From Amphirosellinia nigrospora (Eukaryota; Ascomycota; Sordariomycetes; Xylariales; Xylariaceae), in contig SCHM01000008.1 in NCBI GenBank assembly GCA_004123355.1, forward strand, positions 429,501-493,500: DNA of 64,000 bases, written 5' to 3'. Each line of letters starts with the position of its first letter. The first letter of the stretch is position 1. The notes under the pieces were generated by a model. It did no database searches and was not told the DNA's origin. It saw nothing but the letters and a program-made list of their open reading frames with translations. The position numbers and the translations under genes are program-made. Positions 39,850 through 62,491 of this stretch are shown here, piece after piece.

Positions 39850-40395
39850 ATTTTTTAGTTATCTTAATTTAATATATAATCTATTTACTGCTATACCACA
39901 TATATAAGTCTCTACTACTTTTAATAAGTTATAAGCCCGGAATAGCTTATTTGTATTGTTTTTTAAACTAAAACGCTATTTATATTATAATTATTTTTTA
40001 TAAGCTATTTTTTAACACTACGGCTAAAAAATATAAGTTAATATAACAATACTTAACTTAAATTTGTAAAATTTATACTTATTTAACGCTACTTAGAAAT
40101 ATTATTAAAATTTTTTTGTAAGTAAAAAACTCCTTTATAAATATCCCGGATAATTACTTTATTCATTTATTTTACTAAAAAATCTTTTTTAAATATTTAA
40201 TTATAGCGAGACTAAATATATAAAAAAAATATATAATAAAATAACGTTTTTTAATTTTTTTTTTTATATTAAAATAAATTACTTTTTTTTTAAAACATTA
40301 TAGTATATTTAGCTATATTATATTTTAGTACTAGCTATAGAATTTTAAAACTAGCTATAAAAGCTAGGCTTAACTAAAGAAAGTTTTTTTTATTA

Positions 40396-42240
40396 ACGTA
40401 CCATATAAATATCCTGCTTATATAAGCATCCTGCTTAATATTTTGTATTTTCGTACGAACAATTAAAATAATTTAACTATAATATAAAAAATTAATTAAA
40501 TCTAATCGGAATCGCTTTCGCTAAATATTTTTACTTTGTTTTAATATATATGCGCATTATATCTAGGCTTGCCGCAAATCTTATAGCACCGTTTATTTAT
40601 AATATTTTTTTTTGTATAATAACTACTCGACCGTACTTTATTATTTATTTAGCTTTTAATAGCTTTTTTAATCTTTTAATTTTATTTTTTTATATAATAA
40701 ATATTTTTTTAATTTAAATCCGTTTGTTTTTTACGATAACGTTAGTTTAGTTTATAATTTGCTTTTTAAAGTTTAATTATTTTAAATTAAAATAATATAA
40801 TTTAATATTTTAATATATTTATTTTTTTATAATTAAATTAATTATATTTAAAATAGTTATAAAAAAGCTATTTTAATATTATATAATTTTATATTTAATA
40901 TATTAAACTTATAATTTAATATTTTTTACGTTATAAAATATTTATAACTTTTAAATCCGAAGTCCGTTAAATAACTTTAAAAATATTTTAGTTAAATTTT
41001 TAAGCAGAAATTATAAAATAATATACTTTAAATCGTATAAAATAAAGCTAGCTTTTTAAAAGCTTTTTAATATTTTTTGTATTATTATAACGTTATATAT
41101 AGTATAAAATAATATAAAAAAAATTTTTTTTTAATATAAATAATATAAACTTAGGCTAATTTATCGATTTTTTTACTATATAACCGTTTTAAAAGATTAA
41201 AATAATTAATATTTAAAAGCTAGAGTTTATACGATAAATAAACAAATATATAAAAAGTAATAATTTTATGTTTTTAGCGTATAATTTAAATTTAATAAAA
41301 TAGTGATTTTTATAGTTATTTAAAATTAAAAAGTAATAAAAACTTTTTATACGACGTATTATATAGTAATCGAAATATTTAATTTAATTTAGATTTTTTT
41401 ATTTATAGTTTAGTTGTTTTTTATTATTTTAATTTTTTAATCGGTTAATAAATAGCTATTTTTATATTAAAATAGTAAATAGGTTAATTTAGCTAAAATA
41501 ATATATAGCGGAATAAAATAGCTATATAATAAAATAGTATAATAATAATTATTTATTCCCGATTATTTTATTAGATAGTTTTTAGTTGTTTATAATGTTT
41601 ATATAACGTTATAACTATTTTAAATAATATTTAGTTTATTATAAACTTTATTTTATCGAAGTTATAAATATTTATTTTATAGATATTTTTAATTATAATT
41701 ATATTTTATATAAGTTTAAACTATTTTTAATATTTATTAGGATTTTTATATAAAATTTACTAATAATTAATTTAACGGTTAAAATACGTTCGAAAGTTAA
41801 ATAATTATTATATAAAGTTTAAAGCTTAGTTAATTTTAATAAATAATATATTATATTTATATAGTAGTTAGTTAGTTATATTTTTAATATTATTTAATTT
41901 AAGCGGAAATTTTTATATATTTAAGTTAAATATATATTATACGATTAATTGTTTTTTAAATTTTAATAATTTATATATTGCTAGCTATTTATTTTACTTC
42001 GATAGAATTTTGTTGTAATACGTACGAAAAGTCGAGTAAAGGATATTATAGATTTTTATAACGCGTTATAGCGATAATTTTTCGTTATGTTTAATAGCTT
42101 ATAATATAAGCTATAGATTGTTTTTTTTGTACGATAGTACTATTATTAGTTGTTAAGATATTTGGAAATAATAATAGAAGGTATAAAAATGAGAAAAGTA
42201 AGCAGGATGCTTGTATGAGCAGGATGTTTGTGTGGTACGT
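40396..42240. mobile_element. Tc1/mariner-like DNA transposon relic (TA target site)
   Basis: Both ends are bounded by TA (40394-40395 and 42241-42242). The left terminus begins ACGTACCATATAAATATCC, and the right terminus is its reverse complement with C retained at several sites (ACGTACCACACAAACATCC when read inward). Within each end the word ATCCTGCTYA occurs twice. Terminal inverted repeats are about 42 bp and total length is 1,845 bp, a usual size for fungal pogo/Fot1-like elements. The interior is too RIP-damaged to recognise a DDE transposase or its strand. Confidence 0.7.
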
Positions 42241-43673
42241 TATTTTTTTTATTAAATTATTAATTTTTTATACTTAAAGGGTATTAGGATTTTTTTCTTT
42301 ATTATTTTTTTATAAAGTAAAAAATCTTTATAAAATAATAAAATTAAATATTAAACGATATTTTTTTAAAATAAAGCTTATTTTTTATTTAAAATTTATT
42401 AAATTTTTTAACAAAAATAATTTTTTTTTTTTACTGCTAAGTTAAATTTTTTAAATATTAAATTATTTATTAAAGTACTATTAATAGTAACTATTCCTTT
42501 ATATATTTTAAACTTTTATATAATATTTTACTAAATTTATAATAAATATTATTATTTTATTATTATTAAATAACTTAGATTTGTTTGGTTTAAAGGTTAT
42601 TATTTATAATAATTTTTTTATATTTATTAGGTTTGCTTTTTTTTAACTTAGCTATTTTTTAGCTAAATTATTTGCTTAAGCATTATTATACCCTTTAATT
42701 ATTGTAGAGTTTTTTGCTTAAGTATTATTACGTTTTTTGTTTTTTTTTGTTTAAATATAACGTTTTTTAAAACAATTAAATAATTAATTACTAAAAATAG
42801 CATTTTTATTTTTTAATTTAATTTTATAGCTTTATTTATTAAAGATTATATAAAATAGGCTTAGTAATAAAATTAAAATAAGCAGAAAAAATAATAAATA
42901 ATTATAAAAAATTTTTATATTAAAGTTTTTAAAAAACTATTTTTTTATATAAAAAAATATTTAATTATTTATTAATATAAAGTTATAGAAAACTAATACT
43001 TGGCTGTTCGTTAAAAGTTCGGCTTATAAAACGAATAAAAAAAAAAGATATAAATTTTAAAAATAAAATAAACTGCTAAAAAAATAAGCAAAAAAAAGCA
43101 ATAACAGCGATTAAATATTATTTTAAAATTAATATCCAATTAGTTATAAAAAAGTGTTTTTTTGCTTATATAATTATTAATACTTTTTAAAAGTTCTTAT
43201 AATAATATAAACTAAAAAGTAATACTATTTTTTAAATATTTATTTATAAACTAAATAATATTACTTTAAATATTTACGAAAAAGATATTATTAAACTTAT
43301 TGCGGAACTTTATATAATTTAAAATAAATTAGCAAAACTTAATAAAACATATAAGCTTAGCAAGCTTTTTTTTATTAATAAATTCTTTATTTTTTTTAGT
43401 TTATTTTTTAGGTTTTTTTATTACGTTTTATTAAAATTATAATATACTCCTAAAAAAAATAAAAATACTAAAATTATTAAAAAGTAATAACTTTTAAAAT
43501 AATTATATTAATAGCTTAATATAATTAATAAAACTAAAAAATTAAAGATAATAATATTAGCTTATTATTATTGTTTTATCGCCTAAAGTATAGTTATTAT
43601 AGTAGCTTTTATACTATATGCTATAAAAAAAACCTTTATTTTGCCCTTAAAGGGTAATACGATAAAAAAGCTA

Positions 43674-44281
43674 GGCAATTGATACGGGGGCATGAAGAAT
43701 TGATACGGGGGCATGACCTTAGGGGGGCATGACTTTTACTTAGCCACATATCAGCCACATAAAAAATCATAAAATTAAAGTTAAAACACCTTAATTTTTG
43801 TTATTTTTTGCTCTTTTTTATGGTATAAAGTCTGTAGCCCTAGCCCTAAGTGTGGCTGAGATATTACCTATTATATACAACTTGAAGCAAAAAATCGGTT
43901 AATTACATTACGTTGCATAACATATTATATCTCAGCCACCTTTGTGGCTAGAGCTTAGGGCTATATACTGTTATATAGCCCAGAAAATAACGAAAATTTT
44001 AATATTTTTATATCTTTTAAGTAGTGGCTTAAATTGTGGCTAAACTGTAAAAAACTATATTTTTAGCAAAATTTTAATATAAATTAAAGTATAGCTCAGC
44101 CACACTTAGGGCTATAAAACCCTAAGTTATACCATTGTATAGAGCAAAAAATAACAAAAATTTGAGTATTTTGCTTATATTTTTCAGAGTTTTTTAAATA
44201 GCTCATACAAGGGTTATAAAAGTCATGCCCCCCTAAGGTCATGCCCCCGTATCAATTCTTCATGCCCCCGTATCAATTGCC
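43674..44281. mobile_element. 608 bp foldback MITE with 65 bp TIRs and 8 bp target duplication
   Basis: Perfect 65 bp terminal inverted repeats at 43674-43738 and 44217-44281, starting GGCAATTGATACGGGGG. Each contains two direct copies of AATTGATACGGGGGCATGA. The element is flanked by AAAAGCTA at 43666-43673 and 44282-44289, an 8 bp target-site duplication. Inside, the symmetry continues imperfectly: TGTAGCCCTAGCCCTAAGTG at about 43833 mirrors the segment near 44095-44130, so most of the element can fold back on itself. There is no coding capacity. An 8 bp duplication fits hAT-type (or P/Merlin-type) mobilisation. CpA and G/C runs are intact, so it appears not to have undergone RIP. Confidence 0.85.
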
Positions 44282-44625
44282 AAAAGCTAAGCGAAAAAAA
44301 AAATAAGAAAAAAAAATAAAAAAACAAAAAAAAACTAAAAAAATAATAGCTTTAATACGTTATTATTTATAATTTAAAGCGCTAATATAAGCTATAATTT
44401 TAGCTTTATTATTTTTAATTTAAAAACTAATGTTACCTTTTTTAAAGCATTTAAACTAAGCTATTTTATAGCTATATTTAGTATTAATATAAAGCTTAAA
44501 ATTCTTTTATAGCTTTTTATAGAGATTTTTAATAGCGTTTTAAAAAAATCCTATATAATAAAAACTTTATAATAATTTAAAATAGCTAGCTTTAAAAACT
44601 TTTTAAATAACTAAATAAGCTAAAA

Positions 44626-44919
44626 GTTATGGATCTGCAGGCTCTAGTGGCTGTGCCCCACCACTAGCCACAGCACTTGTAATCTCTACTTGTAGTAACT
44701 GTTATTTGTAGTGAATGCGTAACTGCTATTCGTAGTAAATATAGTTGCAGTAAATAAAGGCAGGCACTAGTAGTGAATGTAGCTGCCTTACGCGAGTATT
44801 TAAGCAGCTGCTTATACTATAAATTTAAACTTTTTTTCTTTTTTCTTTTATTTGTAGATTTTATATATAATATATTATATATACTAGAGCTTTGTTTTTT
44901 TAAATATATAAAGCGTAAT
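44626..44919 (+). repeat. 5' LTR of the gypsy element
   Basis: 294 bp, beginning GTTATGGATCTGCAGG and ending AAGCGTAAT. The terminal GTTAT...ATAAC-type inverted repeat is partly mutated. This copy retains many C and G bases (CTAGTGGCTGTGCCCCACC) that are T or A in the 3' copy. Confidence 0.8.
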
Positions 44920-47900
44920 TATTTATAGATTATTTAAAATATTATAAAGTATTAGGACTATTTTTATAATATTTTTTAATTAAACTAAACTAAACGATTA
45001 ATTTAACTTAGAGATATTAAAATGCTTTTTAAAAAAGAACTGAAAATAATAGGTGCGTATGGCTATACGTGCTAAAGCTTTTGTTGATATTTTAGACTTA
45101 TTTGCTTCGAATGTTCGAAACGATAAGCTTTTTATAATAAAACTCTAATAAATAATAAAAGAATATATTTATTTTAGTTTTTTAGACTACGCGGAGACTA
45201 TAACGGCGGGCTATAAGGGCTAACTACTTTTGATTAATTTAGTATAATAGTTTTGCGGTATTGTTAATAACTATATATTTAAAGAATAAAAATTCGATAT
45301 AAATATTATTAGTTTTAATTATACGGTTTAATATTTAGCCGGTAATTATATAAAATTATAGATAAAAAAAGCTAAGCTTAGCTTTTATTTTAAATTAATA
45401 ATATAGTATAGCAAAATAATTTAGCTTAATTTAATAAAAATATAGATTAAACTAATATAAATAATATATATAAAAACTTTATTGCTATTTTTTAAGAAAT
45501 AAAATATGCGTTTTTTTAATAATAGCTTATTATTATTTAGTTATTAATTTATATACGTTTGCTAAAAAGTTAAATAGGTAAAATAAGGTTTTATTCGATT
45601 AAGTAAAAAAATAAAATAAAATTGTTATTTTTTATAACGAAGTATATATTATATTAATATATATATTAACGTTTTTTAATTTATAACTAAAAATAATTTT
45701 AGCTAATAATAAACCGATTAATAAATTATTAATCAATTATTAAATAAACTATAAAAAATAATTAAATAATATAACTACGCTTAAAATAATTTAAATATTT
45801 CGAACTAATAAATAGTTAATTTGCTAAATTATTATAAAGCAACTTTTGTTTTATTAAATAATAAAAAAAATAGCTAACATATAATTAAAATATTAATATT
45901 TATTTTTTATAATAATATAATTAAAAATAAATTTAAGTTTAAAATATAAATTTAAACTATATAAAATCGCTTTAAATTTAATGCTAATTAGTTTTATAAT
46001 AATATAGTTAAAATAGCTAATATTAAAACTTATATTAGAAGCTATATAGCTAACGATTTTTTTTTTTATTTTTTATCCGATTATTTTAACGTATTTATTA
46101 ATTCGGAAGCTATTTTAAAATATTTCGAAAAAATTTATATTAACGTTAATTATAATAAAAAAATTAAAACTAATTTCCGATTATTTAGTTTTAATTAATA
46201 TATATTAGCTAAATTTTCCAAGTTTTAAATTATTTTTGTCCGTTTAGCTAGTAAAATTAAATTTAATAAAGCTAAATAAAAAAAAAAGTTTAAAAATAAG
46301 CTATTTTTTTAACTAACGACTAAAATTATATTAAAATATTTAAAAAAAATATTAATTTTAACGTTTACGTAAAATATTATTTTTAAATAGTTTATTATTT
46401 AATAGTAACCGATTATAAACGAAATAAAATTTATAAAAAAAAATATAAAAGTTTATTATTATAATTTTTATTTTTTTTTTTTTACTTTTGCTTAAATAAC
46501 TTTTCGTTTTACTTCGAAATTAAATAATAATAGTAATAATTTTGCCCAACTATTTAAACTTAACGCTAATAAAATATAATAATTAATTTTTAACAGTAAA
46601 TATTTTAATTATTATTAATAAAAATATATTTCAAAAAAATACTTATTAAAAAATTAAACTTTAGTAAATAAAAAAGCTCGGGTTACTATTATTTTAGCTA
46701 TATATAGTATATCGGATATTAAGCCGGCTAATATACAAAAAAATAAACTTATAATAAGCATAAAAAAAAAAAATAACTTTAGGAAAAATAGCTTTTTTTT
46801 TAAAAAAGATATTTTTAAAAAATATTATTAGTTATAAAATAAATTTAATAAAAAAGTATTTAAATAAAAGATTTTATTATATATTTATATTTTATATAGT
46901 AATAGATTTTTTTTAACTATAAATAATTTTTTCGGAAATATAAAAATAAATATATATATAAACATAAACTAATAATTTACGGAAAAAATTATTAAACTAT
47001 TTAATTTTATTATTATTACGATTTTTTGCTAAAAAAATTACAGGATATAATAATAAAAACGGAAAAAATATTAATTAAGCTTTTTATTATTATTAAAAAT
47101 ATATAAAAGATTTTAAAAATAAACTTATAATTATTATTAATTTAACTTACGATATTATTTTAAACAAGCTATAGTTTAAATATTACAATATTTTACTAAA
47201 CTATTAATAAAATGCTTAATATTTTTACTTTAACTATTTTTAATTATAATATAAAGTATTATTTAATAATAAATAAAATAAGCATATAGCTATAATATTT
47301 AGCCTATTAATTTAACGCCGATCAATAAAATTATAACCTTAAGATTAAAAAAATATAGCGTTAATAATAATAAAAAAAGCAAAACAATATTTAAAAAACA
47401 TAAAACTAAAAATATTTATTTTAAAGCATAATAATCCAGTGCAAAAAAATTTCGATAAAATAAAGCAAATAATATTTAACTAACCCGCTAGAACTTATTT
47501 TTAAAAAACGCAAACTACGCTTTTTTATAAAAGATATAATTTTAATTTTTATTTAAAAGTTTAATAAAAAAAGTTTTTTTATATAAAATAAAATAGTATT
47601 AGTTAATAAAAAAACTAATAACCGAAATATTTAGTTTAAGTATAACTGCTTTTAATATAATAGTAAAAAAAAACCAGGTAAAAAACGTTTATATTATTAG
47701 TATTAATAAAATTGATAAAATAATCGGAAGATTAAAAAAAATAAAGATAATTTTTTAAAAAAAAAAAGTAAAAAGTTAAAATAAAAAGCGTAAAAAAAAT
47801 ACTTAAAAAATATTAAAATTTAGTACGCGTTTTTAGCCGAATAAACTTTAATATATTACTGCTATATTGTTTATAAATAAACTATAAAATAAAATTTATT

Positions 47901-50900
47901 AAAAGTAAGTTTAAAGCTAATTTAAGCTATAGTTTTTTATATAAAATATTATTAAATAAACTAGAAACTATATAAGAATTTTTAGTTAAAAACTTATACA
48001 AAGCTTTATTAAGTTTAGTAATATTTTATATAGTATATTTATTTTATTTATAAAAAAAGCAAGTAGTAGGCTTCGCTTTTATATAAATTATTATAAATAA
48101 ATAAAATTATAAAAAAACTAATATTTGCTTTTTTTTAAAGGAAACTTTAGCTTATATTACTAGGGCGAAAATCTTTACCCGATTTAATATACAGCAAATA
48201 TTTAACCGTATTTATATATTATTTAAAAATAAAAATTATATAACGTTTTATATAAAATATAGTACGTACTAATTATTAGTATTATTATTTAGTTTTATTA
48301 ACGGACTTTTAACGTTTTAATAGTATATTAATAATATATTATTTAATTTTTTAGATAACTTTTATAGCGCTTACGCGATAATATTATTATTTATTCGGAA
48401 ATAATAAAAAATATATTATTTATATATATTACGTGTTAAAATAACTAATTTAAGCTAAATTATAAATTAATTTAAAAAAATCTAAATTTTATATTATTAA
48501 AACTAAGTTTTTAGGCTATATTATTAATATTAAAAAATTTAAGTAAACTTTGCTAAAATTAACGCTATATTAAAAGATTTTTACGTTAGTTAAAAATATA
48601 TAATTTTTTTAAAATTTTATAACTTTTATTAAAATTTTATTAATACTTAAAGTTATATTATAGCGTTTTTAAACTAATTAACGCGAAAAAGCGTACTTTT
48701 TAAATAAACTAAAAAATATAAAAAGTTATTTTATTAGTTTAAAAAAGCTTTAGTAAAATCCTTTTTATTAAAATATTTTAATTATAATTTATTAACAAAA
48801 GTTAAAATTAATTTATTTAACGGTATTAGTTTTAGCGTATTATTATAATTATATAATAAAACCTAGCATTTTATAGCGTATTTTTCGAAAATATTTTATA
48901 ACGCTAAATTAAACTATAGTATTTATAATAAAGAATTATTAGTAGTTACGCTATATTTTAAGGAATAAAGACTTAAGTTAATTAGTAGCTATAATAAGTT
49001 TTTTTTAGTATTTATTAATAATTAAACATTAAAATTTTTTAGCAAAAATAATATTTTAACCTAAAATAAACTAAATAAGTTAACTTTTTTTTAAAATATA
49101 ACTTTTTAATATTATATTACCCTAGTAAAAATAATATACTAGCTAACGTTTTATTATAAAAAAAAAAAACTTAACAATATAAAAAGCTAAAAAAAAACAT
49201 AACGTTATTTTATAATATTTTAGCTAGTAAATAATATAATATAACTAATTTTTATATAAATAAAGTTATATTAAATAAGTTTTATTAAAATATATAATAA
49301 ACTAAGTATTTTTATAAAATTATAATTAATCAAGCGAATCTTTAAAAAAAACTATAAAAATATAAGTATAAAAATTTATTATTAACGAATAAAAATAATA
49401 AATTAAAAAACTTATAAAAATTAAAAAACAGATTAACTATTTTTTACGGATATTTAATTGTTTTTAACTTTTTATATTTATAGATATATTTTATTAAAAA
49501 AATATACTATAGAATATTTATTATATACTTTAGCAAAAATAAAATATATAAACTTATTGCCGAACGTTATTAGTAGCCGGGGCTAAATAAAAATTATAAT
49601 CGTTATAAGCAAATTATAAAAATATAAACCTATTAAAGTATTTAAGGATAAGATTTTTAGTAAACTTATATTTTTTTAATATTTAAGCGTATATAGCGCT
49701 ATTTTATTATCGACTTTAAATAAATATTTAAAAATAAATATAGATATAATAACGTATTAATTATAGTAAATTATTTAGGTAAACAAGCTTAGATTATATT
49801 TTATATTATAAAAGTAATCGTAAAAAACGCTGCTAAAATATATTACGAAAAACTTTTTTAAGTTTTAAAGTATTTATAACTATAATTTTAAACTAAAAAC
49901 TTTAGTTTATTTCCGCTTTTATAGATAAGCTATATAAGCTAATAGGTATAAAATATATACTAGTTATTATAAAATATTATAAAACTATAAAATAAATAAA
50001 AATTATAAATAAATATATTAACTAAAAATTATAACTATACGTAAGCTATTATTAGGACAACTAGTTTAAACGTATATTTATTATAGATTATATATAAGCT
50101 TTAATTTTTTACGTTTTAATAAAACTATTATTTTACGAAATAAAAATAAGTTTTTTAATATTATTTAACTTCGATTAAGAAAATCGGACTATAAGTATAA
50201 AGCTATAAAAGCTTTTTAAAAAAAAAAAGCGATTTAAATAAATATATAAAAAAAAAATAAAAAAATAGCATAGTTTGTTAAATTAACTAAAAAAAACTTA
50301 TAGTATATTTAAAAACGTATAATTAATTAAGTTAATAAAAGTTAACGTAAACTTAATTTTAATATAAAAAACTATATATTAATTTTAAAAAAAAAATAGT
50401 TTTAAAAAATAGACCGTTTATTGGATAAGCTAGATTTTTTTATAATATAATAAAAGTTTAAAATATACGAAAAAGACGGAAATATTTTTATATTAAATAT
50501 TTTTATAACTTAAAAAGTATTAAACCGTTATTACATAAATCGATTATAAAAGTATTTAAATAATTTATTATTAGGTTAAAAAATAAAAAACTTAAAAAAA
50601 AAATAATAAAACTTAAAAGTAAAAAAAAATTTACTATTAAAAAAATGCGAATATTTCGATTTTACTATTAAAAGTTATAATATTAAATAAACTAAAAAAG
50701 TTAAAATTTCGACGATATATAGTATTTAGTAAAAAACTTTAAAAATAGTGCAAAAGTACTAAAAAATTTTTATAATATAAACTTTAATTTAGCTAAACTT
50801 TTAGTAAAATTGTAAATATAGCTAGAAATAGCGTAAAAAAATAAATTTAATAAGCTATATTTAAATAATAATAAAACTATAGCATAAAGGGAAAGGGTAA

Positions 50901-51135
50901 TATAAAAAAAAAACGCGTAAAATAAAAAAAATACGTAAATATTATATATGTTTAAATATTATATTAAGTAAAAAAGACTTTAAGCGATATATAAAGAAGC
51001 TAATATAATGATTTAACGGTATAAAGGTTTTACGAAAATTATATTAGTAAAAATTTAAAGCGATTTTTTTTTTCGCTAAAAAATAGTTGCGATTTTGACC
51101 TTAGTTAAGTTATTTTTTTTTTCGAAAGGGGAGTA

Positions 51136-51427
51136 GTTATAAATCTATAGGCTTTAGTAGCTATGCCCTACTACTAGCTATAGCACCCGTAATTTTTATT
51201 TGCAATAATTACTACTTGTGGTAAATGCGTGACTGCTATCGTAGTGAATGTAGTTGTAATAAATGAAGGCAAGCATTAGTAGTAAATATAGCTGCCCTAC
51301 GCGAGTATTTAAACAGCTATTTATACTATAGATTTAGACCTTTTTTTTTTTTATTTTATCTGTAGATTTTATATGCAATATATTATATATGCTAAAGCCT
51401 TGTTTTTTTAAGTGTGTAAAGCATAAC
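51136..51427 (+). repeat. 3' LTR of the gypsy element
   Basis: 292 bp, beginning GTTATAAATCTATAGG and ending AAGCATAAC, aligned end to end with 44626-44919. Most differences are C-to-T or G-to-A. It begins directly after the polypurine tract. Confidence 0.8.
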
Positions 51428-54400
51428 TTTAATATTAAAAAAAGTTTATATTTTAAATTTAAACTATAGTTAATATATATTTTATAATTATAAAAAGTTT
51501 TTTACGACTAAACTTTATATTAATTTTAATATTTTTAAAATAAAGAAAAAAATAATTATGTTTAAAAAATAAAAAACTATATACTTATTTCCGTAATTAA
51601 TAGCTAATAAAAAAAAACGATTTTTTATAATATTATATATTACTTTAAAGCGGAAATAAATTTAATTTTAGTTTTTTAACTATTAAAAAAAAAACTAAAT
51701 TTTTTTTTCAATAAAATAAAACATTAAGTATTAAAAGCAAAAAATATTTCTTTTTCGCTCGAGCTATTAATAATTTATATTTAGTTAATACTTTAAATAG
51801 CGATATTAATATTATAACTTTTAATATTAGCTTTTACGCTTATTCTTTTTTTAATTTTAATATATAAATAATACGAACAATTTAAATACTTAAATAATTA
51901 AAGCTTTAAATATTTAATAAATTATTTAATAAAGATTTTTTTTATTTAAAAATATTACTTTTATAAAATATATATTAAAAAAATAAAAAAAACTTTTATA
52001 AAAGTAAGCTATATAAAAATATATAAAAGCTAAAATTTTTATATATAAATTTCGTAAGAATACTAATTTAAATAAACTAAGTTATAAACTACGATCGATT
52101 TATATAGTAAGTAATTATTTATAACGATTTATAAAAATAACTTAAGTATTTATAAAATTAATATTAAAATTTTTAAAAATTTTTAGATTTTTTAAATTAA
52201 AAAAAACGTTTTAAATAATATTATTATATTATTATTTTAAATTAAAGAGTAATTTTTACTAATAATACTTTTAAACTTTATATTATAACCGTAGTATAAT
52301 ATTATATTTTTTACTATTAATTAATACTAGCAAAATAATATTGTTAAAACTATTAATATTTTAAAAAATATTATTTAGCGGTTTTTTATTATTATAAACA
52401 AAAATTAATATTAAATATTAACTAATATTAATATATATAACTATATATTTAAAAAATCTTTATTAATTATTAAACTAAAAAATCGGACATTTTATAAAAT
52501 ATAGTATAAAAGTTTGCTAAACTTAACATATTTCTAAATAGTAAAAACTTTAAGCTATTATTTATTAAAAAAAAAGTTTTAATATTAATAAAAAAATAAA
52601 GTTTATATTATGCTAAATATTAAAAAAAACATTATAAATTATATTATTTTTTAAACTTTAATAAAAATTTACGCTAATAACGTTTTTTTAAAAAAAAATT
52701 ATATTTTAATCGAAAATTAATTATTAATTTATAATATTATTTTTTTAAAATTTATATTAATAATTTTTTCTTATTACTATAAATATTAGGGCATTTAATT
52801 ATAATATATATAACTAGTAAAAAAAGTTAAGTTTTAAAAAACCTTTAAATTAAAAGGAATGTTAAATTATAAATTACTAGAAATAAAAAAAGATAATTTT
52901 TACGTTTAAAAGCAAAATAATAATTAATTTTTAAAGCTTACGCTTATAACCTTGTTATAATTATATATAATAATAATATAAGGAATTTTAAAAACGCTTT
53001 TATAACCGACTTAAAACCCGGATTATATATACTTTTAAAAAGTTTAAAGCTAAAGCTAAAACTAAAGCTAAAAATATTAAATATTATATAAAATATATAT
53101 ATATTAACGGTTTAAAAAAATATTTTAATTTATAATTTAAAATAAAAAACTTATTAAAAATATAGCTTTATTATTAACTTTTTTATTAAATAGTATTAAT
53201 ATTTAATATAAACTTTTTTTAAATAATAATATATTAATTAGTATTATTTATTTTTTATATTTAAAAGTTATAAAACTTAAAACATTAAAATAAGCTTAAA
53301 ATAACATTTATTAATATAGTTAGCTTAAAGCTATAAATAGTAAATATAAATTTTAATTAATAATAAAATTTAAACGATTTATTAATTATTTATAAAATAA
53401 AAATTATTAAAAAAATAAGTTTTTAAGCTAAAATATAAGCCGAATAATAAAATTATTTACTATAAAGCTTGCTAAATAATTAAAAGTTTTAAATAAATAA
53501 AAGCTTAAATTATAATAAAACTTTTATTTTTATAGTTAAGCTTATAAGCTATAAAGCTATTTTTATTATTATTGTTACTTTAAATTTTAAGCTTAAGTAA
53601 ATAAACGTTAAAATAACGTTTTTTTAAAGATATTAATAAAAAATTTATATAAAATAACCTTTTAAGTTTAAAAATAAAACTAGTTATATATAAGCTAAAT
53701 AAAACTTTATATAGTTTAAAATAAATATTTAAAATATAATATAAAACTTTTAAGCTCCCGGAAGTATAATTTGCTATTTTAGGTAAGATTTTAGCTTTAA
53801 AAACATGTTTTTAGAGCTATTGTATAAGTTAACGAGCGTTAAATGTGCTAACGCAATATATATGTTTTAAACATTTTTTTATTACTAAAAGTTTGCTTTT
53901 AATATTATAAAGAACTTAAACAGATAATACTATGCTGCATAAAATTAACCGCAGCTTATTATTTACCCCGGAATAAAAGTAACAAAACGAAGTAATTATA
54001 TTCGTACGTAATATTTATTATAAAAAAGTGCTTTAAATAAATAGTCCGCTTAATAGTAATTATCGACGTTATACTAACGGAAGAATCGATACTTGTAGTT
54101 GGACGTTTAGCTAGCTTTTTTATCGAAATCTAAAATATTATACAATTTTTTCGCCTTAACGCGGTTTTATAAAGGTAGGTTTTTATATAGCTAAAAATAG
54201 CATATATTAACGTTAAAATAGTTAAATATAGCGCGCTCTTTTACGGCTATTATAATACTTATCGTTTAAGCTTTATATTTCGCTAAAAAAAAAAAGCGTT
54301 TATTAATCTGTTTTTTTAGCAGTTATATATTTTTTTTTAATAAATAATTAATAATAGCAACGTTTAAATTATTAGCTATTATTTATCGATCGTATAACGA

Positions 54401-55540
54401 TTTAGCTTTATAAGAATTTTTTTATTAGGCCTATTATATTATAAGCCGTAGCAAAAAAAAAGTAGTATAGTTTGCTTCGGAAGTATTTTTTAATAAGTAT
54501 AAAACTTAGTTAAACTTATAATTTTATATTAAAATATATAGTATATTTTTCGAAAAAAATAAAAATTAATATTAAACTAACGAAATATTTTTTTAAAAAG
54601 TATAAATATATAAAGCAAATAAATTAGTACTACTTTATAAATAAAAAAAATATACGCCGGGTTTTTTAAAATAAAAAACATAATAATTATATTTTAATTT
54701 TTAAAACTTTTTTTTAAATATTAATCGATTTATTAGTATAATTTTATAAGCGCTAAACCGGCTATTTATAAAATAGCTTAAAACAAAAAAATTTTTTTAT
54801 CTTTAAAAAATAAAAAATTTATACGCTACGGGCCATAAATAACTAAAAAAAGTTTATATTAGCTAAAAATCGTTTTAAACTTAGTTATAGCGCTAGTAAT
54901 ATAATTTTAAAGTTCGCAAATAATAAAAATAGGAAAATATAAAATTGCGCTTTTATTATCTAAATTATTAAAAAAACAAATAATAACCCTAAAAAAAAAT
55001 AACGATTTAAAATACGTAAATTAATAATAATTATTCTATTTAAGCTAAAAGATTATTTGCTTTAAATATTTTATATAATAAACTAAAAGATTTTCGGAAA
55101 GCTTTTAAAAATACTACAATAAGCAAATATATATAGTATTTTAAATGCTTTTTTTTTAAAAGCGCCCTTAATAAATCAAAAACTTCTATTAAATTAAAAT
55201 AATATTAAAATCTATTTTATTAATAATAAACTTTATAATTTAATAAAAGATTAATAACAGAAGAACATAATAACGGGGTTTTAGTCTATAATAGCCATAA
55301 ATCGAGCTAAAATCTTAACAAGAAAAACGTCTTTGCAGGTTTTAAAGAGCAAATACTGCTAATTTATATCCTTAAGCACTATATAAAGCTAAAAATTTCC
55401 TAAACTTAAATATCGGCCAAAGAAATAGCTAACATTATTTTAAAGGCAAATTAGCTATTAGTTTAATAATTTCCTAGCATTTATAAAATACTTTTTATTA
55501 AAACTTTTTACTATAATTTTTATAAAATAAATATCTATTA

Positions 55541-55805
55541 TTAAGTTATTTTTATAAGCTTTATATAACTATATAGTTAATATAAAAATCTCTTTATTTA
55601 ACTAGTTTTTAATCTTTATTCTTAGCATTAGTTAACTAATAAAACATAAATATTAACCGCTAAAATATTTGCTATATATTATTAAACTAATTTATATTAC
55701 TAAAAATAAAAAACTTTTATATAGTTAAATAATTATATAAAACCTATAGAAATAACTTTATTAGTTTTTATATAATAATAAATATTTATACTTTACTTTT
55801 ATAAA
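55541..55805. repeat. inverted pair of dispersed repeat blocks
   Basis: Sequence 55541-55624 matches 58202-58285 in direct orientation (shared core TATAACTATATAG...TTAACTAGTTTTTAATC). Sequence 55741-55805 is the reverse complement of about 58161-58223. The same family is therefore present here in two opposing orientations around a TTAGTTAACTAA palindrome at 55628-55639, suggesting nested or rearranged insertions. Differences are mainly transitions. Confidence 0.55.
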
Positions 55806-58160
55806 GTCGTAAAGCTTTTTTATTATATTAGATATTATTTTTTAGTATATAGTTACTTTTGCTTATATATATACCTTTAAACGAAAAAAATAATAGAAGT
55901 TTAAATATAAAGCTAAACAAGTTTATATTATTTTTATTTTTTAAAAAATTACGTAATAAAGCTAATAAAAAATAAAAAATCGGATAAATTTAGTTTTTTA
56001 TAACTTTATAAAAAATTTAAATATAGCTATATAATATTAACCTAAATTAAAAAAATAACAATAAAATTATTTAATAATAATATTTAAGCTTAATATTAAT
56101 TAATAACTTTATTAAATATTTTAATAATATATATATAATATAGTAAATATAAGTTTTTTTTTTACTTTTTAAACAGAAAAAAACTACGTAGCTATATAGG
56201 CCAACTTATATTATAAAATAATAAACCTATTTAATAAGATTTATATTAAACAAAGCTTTTTCGAACAATTTAAAATTGCTATAGCTGCTAATAATAATAA
56301 AAAATAAAACTAAACTAATTAAATAAAAAAAGTAGCAAATAAATATAAATAAAACTAATATTATTTATAAAATAAAAAAGCTATAGCTAAAAAATATCGC
56401 AAATAATTATAATAAATATATTAAATAAAGATTAAAAATTAAATAGCTAAATTTAAAATAAATTTAAAAAAAAAAAATCTAGCTAAGCAATTATAACTAA
56501 AAAAGTTTTATATAAAAATTTAAAATATAATTTTAAAAAGTTTAGATTTAAGGGTTATTAATAAATTTAAAAGCAAACATTAAAAAAGCTTTATTTATTT
56601 ATAAATAATAATCGATTAATAACTATATATTAAATAAATTTAAACTTAAAATTTATTATATTTAAGCTTACTAAATTTTATTTTTAATTTTATAGCTTAG
56701 TATATTTTATATAATATTTTATTAAAATTTTTATAAAAAAATAATTTATTTAATTTTATAACTTATAATATACGTTTTATTTAAAATATAATTTATATAA
56801 AGTTTTTAGTAACTTTTTAACGTTAATATTATTAAGTTAAAAAATAAAACAACTATATAAATAATAAAAGCCGATTTATTAAATAGTTTTATTAATTTTA
56901 TAGTTATATTTTTTACGTATAAATATTAAATTATATCGGTTTTTAACTATTTTATTAAATATATTTAATAATATTTTTAGCTTTAGTACGTTTTAACAAA
57001 TAATAAAGCTAGTTAGGCTATTTATTTTATATTTTTACTTTTAATATAAAAAATTCTGTTTTTTTTTATTAAGCGTATAGTTTTTTATATTTTAAAAAAG
57101 TAGCGTAAACTTGAAAAAAAAACCTAATTATATAGGTCCAGGGCGCTACGGTCCAAAAATAAAATAATGGTTATTAGTATACGCGTTTATAATAAAACTA
57201 AAGATTTTAGGCTTATGTTTAGTAGTATTGCTTATAAACAAAGCTTATAAGTAATTATTTTAATAAAGTAAATATTAGCAGCTAATATTTTTTAAAATTA
57301 TAAAAATATATATACTATATTTAGCAGTAGCGCTAGTTAAAAAAAGTATATTATTAAGCGTTAAAAAACCTAGGTTTAAAATATAAAAAAAAGTTTTTAA
57401 AGCTTCGTTAGTACTTTTATTAATAGTTTTATTTTTATTAGCGGTTTTATTAACGTTAAGGTTTTTATTAATAAGCCTTATGCTATTAAAATTAATAACT
57501 TTACGCTAGTATTAAATAATAGCACTAATAATTTAAGCTTTAGCTATATTTTTATTTTTAATATTAGCTTTTTTAAAATATTTAGCAAGCGTTATTTTAT
57601 AATAATTAAACTTAGTTATAATATCGGCATAAAATTAGCGTTTTATAATTTTTTTTTAACTTTAAATATATTTAAATTATATATAATTCGGTTTATTATT
57701 ATAGTTTTAACATTTTTATTCTTAGTAAAAATTATCCGTAAGTTGTTTTTTTGCTATAAAATATGTTTAACCGCTTTTAAAAAAGCCGAATTAACTTTGC
57801 TTATAAGCAAAAGCAAAAAAAAATAATAAATAACATTTTAAATTTAATATAGCTTATAAAAAACTAAAATAAATAAAATAAAAATATAAAAAAATATATA
57901 TTTAGCTATATTTTTATTAAAAGCTAAACATACTATTTTAGCTATATTTACTTTTGCTTATTTTTACTAATTTATTATTATATTTAAAAAATAAATAGTT
58001 GCTATAAATCTTATTTTAGTTTTATAATAAAACAAAAAATATATATTAATTTTTTTTAAGTCTTAAAATAATATAGTTTTGTTTAATATATAAAATAAAA
58101 ATCTTAAGCAATAAACTTTAAAAATATAAACAAAATTCTTTTTATATTATAATCTTTATA

Positions 58161-58295
58161 AAAATAAAGTATAAATATTTATTATTATATAAAAAACTAA
58201 TAAAATTATTTCTATAAGCTTTATATAACTATATAGCAATATATATAAAATCTTTTTGTTTAACTAGTTTTTAATCTTTATTTTTAATACTTTAT
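58161..58295. repeat. second copy of the dispersed repeat block
   Basis: Direct copy of the block at 55541-55624 and inverted copy of 55741-55805. It lies immediately left of the antisense LTR fragment and may be part of the same degraded element. Confidence 0.5.
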
Positions 58296-58329
58296 ATTTT
58301 ACTTTTATATTTAATATATAAGCTAAAAA

Positions 58330-58570
58330 GTTTTTAAGTTTTATCGATTTTTATTAATATATTATATATAAAATCTATAAATAAAAAAAAAAAAAAAAAG
58401 TTTAACCTTACGCTATAAATAGCTACTTATATATTCGCGATTTAATAAAATAAGTATATTTATTATTTATACTTACTTTTATTTATTATAAATATTATTT
58501 ATTATAAATAGCAATTATTATAAATAAAAATTATAAATATTATAATCTATAATTATTATATAAAATTATT
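58330..58570 (-). repeat. antisense LTR fragment of the gypsy family
   Basis: Reads as the reverse complement of the LTR: TATATAAAATCTATAAATAA, an A-run, AGTTT, TATATTCGCG (from ATACTCGCG) and then a series matching the repeated GTAGTAA words. It is more mutated than the two LTRs at 44626 and 51136, especially toward its right end, so the outer limits are approximate. No matching partner LTR was found, so it may be a solo LTR. Confidence 0.55.
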
Positions 58571-59224
58571 TAAATATATAAAATATATTAAACAAAGTTT
58601 TTCGTACTATATTAGTATAAATATTTAAATATTATTAATACTTTATAAAAATAATAGAAATTAAGACTATTATTCCTCGCTACGCTTTATTTAGCTACTT
58701 TAGGGTATTATAATATTACGTCCCTAATATTATATATATCTTTTATAAAAAATACTTTAGATTAAGCAATATAACTAACGTAAAATTATTTTTTTTATTA
58801 ATTTTTACTTTTAGCTTTAAAGCTTTAATTACTCGATCTAAAATAATAATAAGTTTATAAATTCTTTTTTTTACTAAACAAATAATATATAGTTAATATA
58901 TTTATAAAATTTTAATAAGCTTATAAACTTATAATTTAAGTTTAAAATAACTTCGTTAGCTTTTATAAACTAATTTTTTATTTATCCTATTTTTTACGTT
59001 TTTTATATTATTTATATAGCTTTATAAGCTTATAAATTATTTAAAAACGATTTTTAGCATTATTTTTTTTAACTATTTTTTTTTTTTTTAAGCTCGTTAA
59101 TAAAAAAACAACTTTATTTTAATAAAATATATCCGGCGTAAAAAGTATACTTATAAATATTTTTTATTATAATATTTATAATATAATAAAGCTATAAAAC
59201 AAAAACGTTAATAATAACTAAAGC

Positions 59225-59640
59225 ATTTAAAATAAAACTTTTTATCGCAATATTATTTTAGGCGTAATTACGTTATAAAAAAAAATATTAATTTTAGCCA
59301 AAAGCTTAAAAGCAAGACTTTTTATCGAAATATTATTTTAAACATAACTATATTATAAAAAAAAAATATTAATTATAGCTAAAAGCTTAAAAATAAAACT
59401 TTTTATTAAAATATTACTTTAAACGTAATTACGTTATAAAAAAAAATATTAATTATAACCGAAAGCTTAAAAATAAAACTTTTTATTAAAATATTACTTT
59501 AAATATAACTACGTTATAAAAAAAAATATTAATTATAGCTAAAAGCTTAAAAATAAAACTTTTTATCGAAATATTACTTTAAAAATAACTAAGTTATAAA
59601 AAAAAAATATTAATTATAGCTAAAAGCTTAAAAGCAAAAA
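59225..59640. repeat. 80 bp tandem array, about five units
   Basis: The word ACTTTTTAT recurs at about 59237, 59317, 59398, 59478 and 59558. Each occurrence is followed at fixed distance by an AATATTA element, GTTATAAAAAAAAA, TATTAAT and AAAGCTTAAA. Unit length is 80 or 81 bases. Units differ by transitions (CG/TA, ACG/ATA), as expected from RIP acting on a tandem repeat. The array ends about 350 bases before the ZZ-finger gene. Confidence 0.8.
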
Positions 59641-59994
59641 TTTTTAGCGATATTTTACTAAACGTAAAAACTAGTTTTAATAATAACGTTAAACTTATTA
59701 AAGCTGCTATAAAAGCTTTATAATTAAAGTTATTTTTAAAATTCCGGACATAAATATTTCTAGTTTTAATATTAATATTTTTAAAAACTTTAAACGTAAT
59801 AATAAAAAAGCTAGCTTTTATTAAAAAGCTTTTATATTAATTTTATACGCATAAAAATTATTTCTGACTAATATTTACTTTAAATAGTTGGTTATAATAT
59901 AAGAATTTTTTTTTTTTAATCTTTTTTACTTCTATTATATATAACATAGTATTAAAGATTTATTCTAGTCTTAGCATTACTATTATTATTTATC

Positions 59995-61976
59995 ATGTTT
60001 GCCACTCAACGAAACCTTAACGTACAATCATTTACACAGCGTAATTCTACACGAAAGCGGAAACACAACATCAATCAAAAAAGCCGCCCAAGGAGTCGCC
60101 AGAAAACTCATCCTGAGAGTCGTCCCAAGAGTCACCAAGAGAGTCGCCAAGAGAGTCACCAAGAGACTCATCCTGAGAGTCGCCCCAAGAGTCACCAAGA
60201 GAGTCGCCAAGAGACTCATCCTGAGAGTCGCCCCAAGAGTCACCAAGAGAGTCGCCAAGAGACTCATCCTGAGAGTCGTCCCAAGAGTCACCAAGAGAGT
60301 CGCCAAGAGACTCATCCTGAGAGTCGCCCCAAGAGTCACCAAGAGAGTCGCCAAGAGACTCATCCTGAGAGTCGTCCCAAGAGTCACCAAGAGAGTCGCC
60401 AAGAGACTCATCCTAAGAGTCGTCCCAAGAGTCACCAAGAGAGTCGCCAAGAGACTCATCCTGAGAGTCGTCCCAAGAGTCACCAAGAGAGTCGCCAAGA
60501 GACTCATCCTAAGAGTCGTCCAAGAGTCACCAAGAGAGTCGCCAAGAGACTCATCCCGAAAGTCATCCCGAGAGTCGCCAGGAGACCCATCCCGAAAGTC
60601 ATCCCGAGAGTCGCCAGGAGACCCATCCCGAAAGTCATCCCGAGAGTCGTCCTAAGAGTCGCCAGGAGAGTCGTCCTAAGACTCGTCACAAAAATCGGTC
60701 GAAAGAGCTCCGTGTTTTGAATCAAAATAATAATCGAAACGACCATCGAGACAGCGACCGAGAGGGCGTTACTCGAAATCATATCCGACCATCACGGTCA
60801 CATAAGAAACGATACAGATATAGAAATAAGAGCACAACAAATACCGCCGGCAGCATCAACGAAAGCATCAACGACAGTATTAACAGCAGCCTTAGCGACA
60901 CCTTCAACAGCAGCCTTAGCGACACCTTCAACAGCAGCCTCAGTAACAGCCCTAGCCACAGCCCCAACAACAGCTTTAGCGAAGGCATCAACAAAAGTAG
61001 CACAACATGTTCGTACTGTCAGAAGATAGTACTAGTATACTATACGTGCTCCAGTTGTACGTACTTGATCTGTAATAAGTGCTACATAATACACCCTAAA
61101 TCGCATTCACTGGAAAAATTTACTCCCTACAATCCCGGCACTACTCAAGGCTTTCAAGAGCCGGTGGAAGATCAAACCTCTAAGGCCTGTCAGGACGATA
61201 GTGGTCTTCAAGGCGGTGGCCAGGACGATAGTGGTCTTCAAGGCGGTGGCCAGGACGATATAGGCCTCAACGAGCCCGACGGTCCTAGTGTTGATGGTGT
61301 TAGCCATCACGGCTATCGTGAGCCCGGAAGCCCTGATTTCCAGGGCATTGGCTTTCAAGAGCCGGTGGAAGATCAAACCTCTAAGGCCTGTCAGGACGAT
61401 AGTAGTCTTCAAGGCGGTGGCCAGGACGATATAGGCCTCAACGAGCCCGACGGTCCTAGTGTTAATAGTGTTAGCCATCACGGCTATCGTGAGCCCGGAA
61501 GCCCTGATTTCCAGGGCATTAGCTTTCATGAGCCTGAAGGCTATCATAGCTTCGAATCTTCTAGTAATTTAGAGGACGACCCTAACGATTCAACCTATAT
61601 CCAAGTTAATTCGGATAACGAGGATTTTGAAGAATATAGACCGGATGATTTTTTCGAAGACTTTATTATATCAGTTAATTCAGCAGTTCAAAAAGCTATA
61701 TCAACTACAGTAACAAGTTTCACATCGAAACTTAACAAACAACAGCAACAATATTACGCTGATAAGTCTCGGGGCAAATCATCGCTGTTGGACTTTCGGA
61801 TTGATACAAGACGCCATAGACAAGGGGGGACCCTTCGACTATGGAGTTCTCACGACAGGCAACGTCTTCGGGACTTAAAGGAGAAGAATTGGTCTAATGC
61901 AGCAATTGGAAATGCGCTTGGGAGAAGTGCAGGAGCTATCTCACAACAATGGAGAAAGCAGGCTAAGCGTACCTAA
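59995..61976 (+). CDS. repeat-rich ZZ zinc-finger protein with C-terminal Myb-like HTH
   Basis: Start MFATQRNLNVQSF at 59995. One missing C near 60520 (CGTCC for CGTCCC) splits the frame; adding it gives a continuous 660-residue protein. Order: a basic N-terminus; about nine copies of a 16-residue unit HPESRPKSHQESRQET plus degenerate HPESHPESRQET units; a Ser/Asn tract (SLSDTFNSSLSDTF); a ZZ-type finger with CSYCQ, YYTCSSC, CNKCY and HPKSH at about residues 339-371; an acidic region with a 67-residue duplication; a Gln-rich coiled stretch; and a C-terminal tryptophan-cluster HTH (LRLWSSHDRQRLRDLKEKNW, then IGNALGRSAGAISQQW). This suggests a nuclear, chromatin- or DNA-associated protein (inference). 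It begins within 10 bases of the RIP block yet is unmutated. The domain combination is not one I recognise. Confidence 0.8.
60109..60690 (+). repeat. 48 bp coding minisatellite in the ZZ-finger gene
   Basis: A first 60 bp unit at 60109, then 48 bp units starting at 60169, 60217, 60265, 60313, 60361, 60409, 60457 and 60505, followed by HPESHPESRQET-type 36 bp units. Copies are nearly identical, with a GAG/AAG (E/K) alternation at one codon and a GTC/GCC alternation at another. All six frames are largely open, which creates long artefactual antisense frames. Confidence 0.9.
61149..61520 (+). repeat. internal 201/171 bp coding duplication in the ZZ-finger gene
   Basis: Copy A (61149-61349, 67 codons) and copy B (61350-61520, 57 codons) both start GGCTTTCAAGAGCCGGTGG. 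They differ by one 30 bp subrepeat (CAGGACGATAGTGGTCTTCA...) plus a few substitutions. Both keep the frame and encode acidic Gly/Asp/Gln/Pro-rich sequence. Confidence 0.9.
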
Positions 61977-62491
61977 TTGCTGAAGTAATACTAGGTCAAG
62001 GAGTCACCACAGGTACTGTACAAGGGCACAGGCATCCATCGTATATATAAACAGGTCATCCCACCTACTCTATCATATAGTCAAGTAGCTGAATAGTACG
62101 CTCGTATACCTTCCATTTTAGCACTAATAACCTGGATATACCCTTGCAAGTTTCTTAAAGTAGGTTAGGTACCTACCCCTCTGCGCCTCTATAAGTACAT
62201 ATTATTATTGGCCCCGGCCGTTTATCTCTTTGAATGGCGTTTCGGCACCACCTGCAGTACATAAAAAGTAGAAAAGCGGGACTAAGTAGATAACCAGATG
62301 AGCGAATCGGACTTTTATTCAAAAAGCGTACCTAATCCAATTCGTCCATCTGGCTATTTGCTTAGCTTCCCTGTCCACTTTTCATGTACTGGTGCCGAAA
62401 CGCCATTCAAAGAGATAGATATCCAACATCTTTCTATCTGCACAAACTTAACATCCCTTAGTGGAAACAACCCTAACTATAATGCCTTGTG
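61977..62491. other. spacer between the two ZZ-finger genes
   Basis: A 515-base region holding the 3' flank of the first gene and the promoter of its decayed paralogue. The main content is the long hairpin at 62223-62417, listed separately. A TATATATAAAC stretch lies at about 62041-62051. Confidence 0.5.
62223..62417. repeat. 195 bp imperfect palindrome (long hairpin)
   Basis: Arms of about 90 bp: 62223-62250 (TATCTCTTTGAATGGCGTTT...) is the exact reverse complement of 62390-62417 over 28 bases. The symmetry continues inward through GTACATRAAAAGT, GGGACTAAG-like and CCAGATGRRCGAATYGG segments to a short loop near 62312-62330. One arm carries a 6-base insertion (CCTGCA). Mismatches are largely transitions. 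It could be a foldback MITE or a hairpin RNA source. Confidence 0.75.

Follow-up and report, generated by a model that had tools for sequence, protein, structure and literature searches.

The window, by which we mean the whole 64,000-nucleotide stretch analyzed here, corresponds to positions 429501 to 493500 of the 1.30-Mb contig C10 in a genome of 48.1 Mb and 11 contigs; coordinates given without a contig are those of the window. Close to its right end lies a gene that we call ZZ-HTH. An ATG frame on the plus strand, running from 59995 to a stop at 60720, encodes a protein start reading MFATQRNLN and most of an S/R/H/Q/E repeat array, and an open frame of 487 codons on the same strand (open only from 60513 to 61976) encodes the end of the array, a zinc finger, an acidic duplication, and a helix-turn-helix (HTH). 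The array consists of 48-nt (16-residue) tandem units at 60128 to 60585 on the plus strand (TRF period 48, 9.6 copies, 94% matches, score 744), and its length varies among the genomic copies of the element described below. A spacing pattern scan over the family loci located a ZZ/B-box-like zinc finger at 61008 to 61106 (plus strand), present in one copy as C-x2-C-x9-C-x2-C-x4-C-x2-C-x3-H-x3-H; its spacing identifies it as the family's second ("B") finger, and the first finger was not found by the pattern. Farther along the plus strand are a 171-nt acidic direct duplication at 61221 to 61534 (TRF, 1.8 copies, 96%) and a Myb-like HTH with a QQWRKQ end at 61842 to 61973, defined by an alignment (A1) of eight loci with seven invariant columns. 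A decayed second ZZ-HTH copy occupies 62492 to approximately 63340 (plus strand), beginning with MFASNRTFDPSSY, with its fingers in different frames and an in-frame TGA; a second HTH that might belong to it was sought in C10:489001 to 499000 without a match. To the left of the gene, 40001 to 59850 is AT-rich RIP-type DNA (GC of 0.156, TA/AT of 1.32, and [CA+TG]/[AC+GT] of 0.35 over 40001 to 59990), and the gene itself has a GC of 0.487. The array, the ZZ/B-box-like finger, the acidic duplication, the Myb-like HTH, the AT-rich border, and the decayed neighbor had all been described in the initial annotation, and all were found.

The single open frame that the initial annotation had drawn from 59995 to 61976 was not, since the ATG frame stops at 60720 and the frame carrying the finger and HTH has no methionine. 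The switch between the frames falls at a 47-nt unit among the 48-nt units of the array (60502 to 60548, plus strand, from a listing of the units), and the same repeat peptide runs on either side of it. Because the peptide repeat is unbroken over the switch, we attribute the switch to the 47-nt unit, as an indel or an assembly error, rather than to a separate gene. An intron within the array might also have caused the switch, but no usual fungal donor was seen by eye and the repeat peptide continues, so that an indel is likelier. Judged from these frames, the window copy of ZZ-HTH is interrupted or misassembled. The translation start at 59995 is real even though the frame is later broken, and we regard the gene model as basically right because an intact paralog on C6 has the same MFATQRNLN start in a sequence comparison. 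For the window copy to yield a full-length protein, the interruption would have to be an assembly error. The alternative is that the window copy is a dead relic whose function ended with the array indel, with only paralogs such as the intact C6 gene still acting, and we give this a substantial but clearly less than even chance. The frame switch itself, the adjoining decayed second copy, and the RIP'd state of the sibling copies speak for a relic; indels in long, near-identical arrays are, however, a frequent assembly error, the window copy has no visible RIP (one reverse-type difference relative to the C4 copy), and on one reading of the alignment the two halves are in phase in one of the three RIP'd copies examined. 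A relic at this position would be compatible with the interpretation favored below, from which it was assessed separately.

A Pfam search with the window protein returned no domain above the gathering cutoff. Profile searches, the check that the initial annotation had suggested for the two domains, did give matches, but neither domain reached its gathering score: the HTH scored 25.2 bits against HTH_38 (cutoff, 27) and 17.3 bits against Myb_DNA-bind_6 (cutoff, 22.9), with six of eight family members matching HTH_38 at an E value of ≤0.1, and the finger matched C1, B-box, FYVE, Siva, and other families weakly. ZZ (PF00569; cutoff, 21.4) was not among the Pfam matches for the window finger, and the finger of the C6 paralog scored 18.0 bits against it, below the cutoff; the spacing of the window finger suits either the ZZ or the B-box type 1 class. 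A search of PDB sequences with the window protein gave five matches with E values of 0.21 to 0.36. A profile of the HTH matched designed helical proteins (E values down to 9.4e-10) without any single stretch passing and gave weak HTH matches, such as RcsB at an E value of 0.12 and a Myb-like factor at 0.14. AlphaFold models of the HTH and finger, built from single sequences, were of unusable quality (pLDDT of 62.7 and 58.5). Differences among HTH sequences at the first, second, and third codon positions numbered 419, 370, and 663 (28 pairs, 38 codons), and the 1.8-fold excess of third over second positions therefore indicates that the protein has been under past selection; at the protein level the HTH is conserved.

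Proteins of the ADA2 and SWI3-RSC8 types join a ZZ finger to a SANT/Myb domain, with a SWIRM domain and with other spacing. The window protein shares with them the presence of a ZZ-type finger and a Myb/SANT-type domain in one protein, but SWIRM was not matched in Pfam by the window or paralog frames (E value of ≤1 or 0.1), the finger is below the ZZ cutoff, the finger and HTH are approximately 245 residues apart, and the gene is inside a repeated element. The statement that no described family has this domain order survived the libraries searched, with the qualification that proteins of the ADA2/SWI3 type also combine ZZ with SANT/Myb.

Eleven ZZ-HTH loci that are not heavily RIP'd were identified by protein searches of the genome. 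C9 has six of them, C10 has three, and C6 and C1 have one each; nine therefore lie on C9 and C10, which together represent 2.6 of the 48.1 Mb. The weakest locus counted, C9:910k (E = 0.006), has no HTH match and was kept, counting against the association with DUF3435 genes reported below, and weak matches at C9:985988 (E = 0.04), C4:5987124 (0.05), C5:6638935 (0.004), C1:1207918 (0.07), and C4:7901223 (0.8) were left out of the counts. The intact C6 paralog has 399 codons and encodes two fingers, an SLLDF motif, and the HTH. By spacing pattern, two fingers are present at four of the nine loci examined (C6, C9:468k, C10:1011k, and C10:131k), one at another four (the window, C9:45k, C9:1195k, and C1), and none at C9:57k, although exon borders may hide some. 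None of 58 tRNA matches was on C9 or C10, compared with approximately 3 expected by length (63 of 1,644 candidates were scored), which is only suggestive as to the small-contig status of C9 and C10.

A DUF3435 recombinase gene lies just past the end of the window on the minus strand (C10:493464 to 495295, perhaps to 496709). It matches PF11917 in three pieces of 78.5, 61.1, and 37.7 bits, all above the Pfam cutoff, and is in pieces in the six-frame reading (introns or stops). It follows ZZ-HTH by about 2 kb in convergent orientation, with the decayed second copy between them. Across the genome, a PF11917 search gave 36 matches that were grouped into 19 loci, two of which were below the family cutoff throughout. 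Seven of the 11 ZZ-HTH loci had a DUF3435 locus no more than 10 kb away, against a mean of 1.02 in 20,000 within-contig placements (P of ~1e-4), and five were within 4 kb, against 0.49 expected. Of the eight DUF3435 loci with the best scores, seven belong to these pairs; at the eighth, C6:547k, a search of 10 kb found no convincing HTH. In the other direction, no ZZ-HTH was detected within 10 kb of 12 of the 19 DUF3435 loci. Gene order is convergent in five pairs (the window, C9:45k, C9:117k, C9:468k, and C9:1195k) and tandem in the remaining two (C6 and C10:1012k). Over six loci, pairwise distances between DUF3435 sequences correlated with those between finger B plus HTH sequences (r = 0.74; 16 of 720 permutations), a correlation driven largely by a trio of C9 loci, and correlated weakly with those of the HTH alone (r = 0.36; 109 of 720 permutations). 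Between C10:496k and C10:859k the PF11917 search listed no DUF3435 gene, though a RIP'd one at 756.5k was missed.

It is possible that ZZ-HTH is instead a passenger (cargo) family that takes no part in transposition, for example a transcription factor that was duplicated in small contigs rich in elements, in which case its closeness to DUF3435 would follow from shared residence in elements. This would agree with the four of 11 loci that have no DUF3435 neighbor within 10 kb, with the concentration of DUF3435 genes on C9 and C10, where nine of the 11 loci are found, and with the presence nearby of Hsp70-like/ZZ and J-domain genes too. Against it stand an association above within-contig random placement, the convergent order in five of seven pairs, and the terminal position of ZZ-HTH in a multicopy block, and we consider it somewhat unlikely. 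The Hsp70-like gene, which itself carries a ZZ-type finger (21.8 bits in the one scanned, above the Pfam cutoff), recurs near several ZZ-HTH/DUF3435 pairs, for example at C9:475.9-477.2k; the Hsp70-like label was given by eye to a part without a Pfam match. The order Hsp70-like/ZZ, DUF3435, ZZ-HTH is conserved at C9:36-47k and C9:466-478k, which have diverged to 65 to 77% DNA identity in the matched pieces.

At the left end of a repeated block, the gene nearest the terminus is ZZ-HTH, which starts 144 bp in and reads inward. At least 27 kb belong to this block: pieces of a copy on C4 match C10 between 489.35 and 516.4 kb, with an offset that hardly changes (to 492.8, 496.4 to 497.5, 499.0 to 504.1 with gaps, 509.5 to 512.5, and 512.5 to 516.4 kb), and copies at C10:751-792k, which contains inserted DNA, and at C9:1039-1009k on the minus strand show stretches of matching sequence across that span. 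A right end was sought without success: C4 departs at ~516.38 kb, and the C10:792k and C9:1009k copies continue. The DUF3435 stretch was matched directly by DNA, in part, only in the C10:752k copy, where it is in place at 756.5-759.5k, and the constant spacing suggests its presence in the C4 copy as well. The block also holds a J-domain gene at C10 500.1 to 502.0 kb (DnaJ, 31.1 bits) and, from ~504.2 kb on C10, a LINE-like stretch whose frames were read by eye.

The ZZ-HTH region of the block is present in RIP'd form at four loci (C10:752k, C10:797k, C9:1038k, and C4:6193k). All four are collinear with the window past the gene into the spacer, and three continue across the start of the decayed copy; the match of C10:797k ends at window position 62483, near the limit of the stretch compared. 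The decayed copy is part of the element and is shared by RIP'd copies, and because it lies within the aligned stretch, its decay must predate multiplication of the block. Relative to the window copy, RIP-type, reverse, and transversion differences numbered 742, 1, and 0 in the C4 copy (2,292 aligned positions), 683, 1, and 2 in C10:752k (2,137 aligned), 738, 3, and 18 in C10:797k (2,198 aligned), and 500, 9, and 21 in C9 (1,703 aligned), and 90 to 95% of CpA sites were changed in the RIP'd copies. Since the differences are almost only C/G to T/A, the copies were nearly identical to the window copy when RIP struck, and the pattern of differences indicates that the window copy escaped it. Together with its RIP'd sister copies, the window copy provides a natural experiment, in that the sequences are nearly identical apart from RIP.

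Four copies (the window, C4, C10:751k, and C10:798k) begin at the same base, window position 59851, so that 59851 to 59994 (plus strand) comprises the left terminus of the element and the 5' leader of ZZ-HTH. To the right of this base, the four share a purine/pyrimidine identity of 1.0 for 55 nt; on the left side, the six pairs give identities of 0.45 to 0.61 (positions −250 to −100) and 0.47 to 0.59 (−100 to −3), and the AT-rich flank in the window is unrelated to the three other left flanks. Over the last 10 bp before the junction, identity is high in two pairs (1.0 and 0.9) and low in the other four (0.6 to 0.7). The terminal 35 nt had four genomic matches at ≤3 mismatches, compared with none for a reversed control. 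In the C9 copy the left end is absent or diverged, and the terminus was not found in 12 other genomic regions examined. The one match there that scored well above its reversed-query control (95 versus 73, at C10:855k) was rejected as a gapped low-complexity alignment in DNA with a GC of 0.11. Outside the junction, TATA is present at −9 to −6 in all four left flanks (TTATA in three of them), and AT is present at −2 and −1 in all four; the TATA could be a RIP-altered target of the recombinase.

Because this sharp left end is common to four copies with unrelated flanks, a mobile element is the most likely identity of the block, and the gene very probably belongs to it. The common edge might also be explained by segmental duplication between the small contigs and C4, with one ancestral breakpoint copied onward. 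Duplication would suit a block of at least 27 kb whose right end is not seen, and other duplications do exist on C10, for example near its left end (C10:4000-65000), where a stretch recurs about five times with a spacing near 14.6 kb. However, four different left flanks meeting one identical junction would need the same breakpoint repeatedly, and the TATA at the same distance outside all four junctions and the recombinase gene inside the block also speak against duplication; we consider this explanation quite unlikely.

With the block read as a mobile element, the apparent heterochromatin border takes on a different meaning. The window copy, at normal GC, adjoins DNA with a GC of 0.15, so the AT-rich flank did not arise from RIP of this copy, and insertion of an un-RIP'd element copy into AT-rich DNA explains why the gene looked unmutated next to a RIP block. 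AT-rich DNA does adjoin the gene, as the initial annotation stated, but the boundary at 59851 appears to be the insertion boundary of the element, at a point common to four copies. The same annotation had raised the possibility of a host chromatin or genome-defense factor, and homologs were accordingly checked for similar surroundings: among the 11 loci, AT-rich blocks border two of the nine whose surroundings were examined, the window and C10:1011k, where the block stops ~230 bp before the ATG, much as at the window gene. Placement at AT-rich borders was thus rejected as a family trait. A host factor, next to the RIP block by chance, would be in keeping with the ZZ-like finger, the Myb-like HTH, and the AT-rich DNA at the border; the location of the gene inside a repeated block with four RIP'd copies, the scarcity of AT-rich borders in the family, and the common terminus all disfavor it, and we regard it as highly improbable. 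The further suggestion of a domesticated transposon-derived regulator was right about the transposon link, but the gene resides in the element itself, as the first gene of a DUF3435 block of at least 27 kb.

We therefore favor, at a probability of roughly 0.55, the interpretation that ZZ-HTH, a gene of the element itself, encodes a DNA-binding accessory factor of a Starship-like tyrosine-recombinase element. The block shares with Starships its large size and multiple copies, a DUF3435 gene, a sharp terminus, and the coexistence of RIP'd and un-RIP'd copies. The DUF3435 captain is described as the first gene of every Starship (PMC12257634). Here, at the left end, which is the one end seen, ZZ-HTH is first, whereas the DUF3435 gene lies farther in and reads toward that end, and we therefore class the block as a Starship-like variant and not as a member. 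The Starship Sanctuary has a conserved chromodomain gene as its final gene, for which targeting to heterochromatin was called purely speculative by the authors (PMC12506042). This far-end chromodomain gene is the nearest published parallel found to the terminal ZZ-HTH gene. Cryptons likewise use a tyrosine recombinase as the mobility gene, but they are small and carry a Crypton-type recombinase, a description that does not fit a block of at least 27 kb with a recombinase of the DUF3435 type; the Starship and Crypton recombinases are described as very distantly related (PMC12134995). In a literature search that missed most subscription papers and preprints, no paper joining Starships with Myb, or DUF3435 with ZZ-type domains, was found, and broader searches turned up nothing noticed on this gene pair. 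Other work on Starships may have mentioned Myb/SANT genes.

An accessory role for the ZZ-HTH protein in the recombinase system is, in our estimate, slightly less likely than not. In such a role, the C-terminal HTH would contact DNA, at the element ends or at the recombinase promoter, and the cross-brace finger or fingers would make contact with chromatin or with a partner protein, with the acidic or repetitive middle serving as a flexible linker. The protein would then assist or regulate excision and insertion and might bias insertion toward AT-rich heterochromatin, although a specific action in chromatin targeting seems unlikely. It is conceivable, at similarly low odds, that the block is a two-component element in which the terminal zinc finger/HTH protein reads chromatin, binds the element end, and steers the DUF3435 recombinase into RIP-made heterochromatin. 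Insertion there would be harmless, and the convergent ZZ-HTH/DUF3435 pair would represent an old, coinherited mobility module. This bears on how giant fungal DUF3435 elements choose their sites and on which genes they need besides the recombinase: a recurring DNA-binding/zinc finger gene at an element end, paired with the recombinase, offers a concrete and testable candidate.

Short repeats were also seen in and around the block. A repeat of ~147 bp at 61978 to 62123 begins 2 bp past the ZZ-HTH stop and has 87 to 98% identity to stretches in C9:120k, C9:688k, C6:196k, C6:543k, and C10:125k. Between the ZZ-HTH gene and the decayed second copy there is a MITE-like unit with a perfect 28-nt inverted repeat (62223 to 62250 and 62390 to 62417, arms 139 nt apart). 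A 145-bp repeat at C10:497050 to 497194 has at least 37 further copies at 93 to 99% identity on most contigs and appears to be a young short element.
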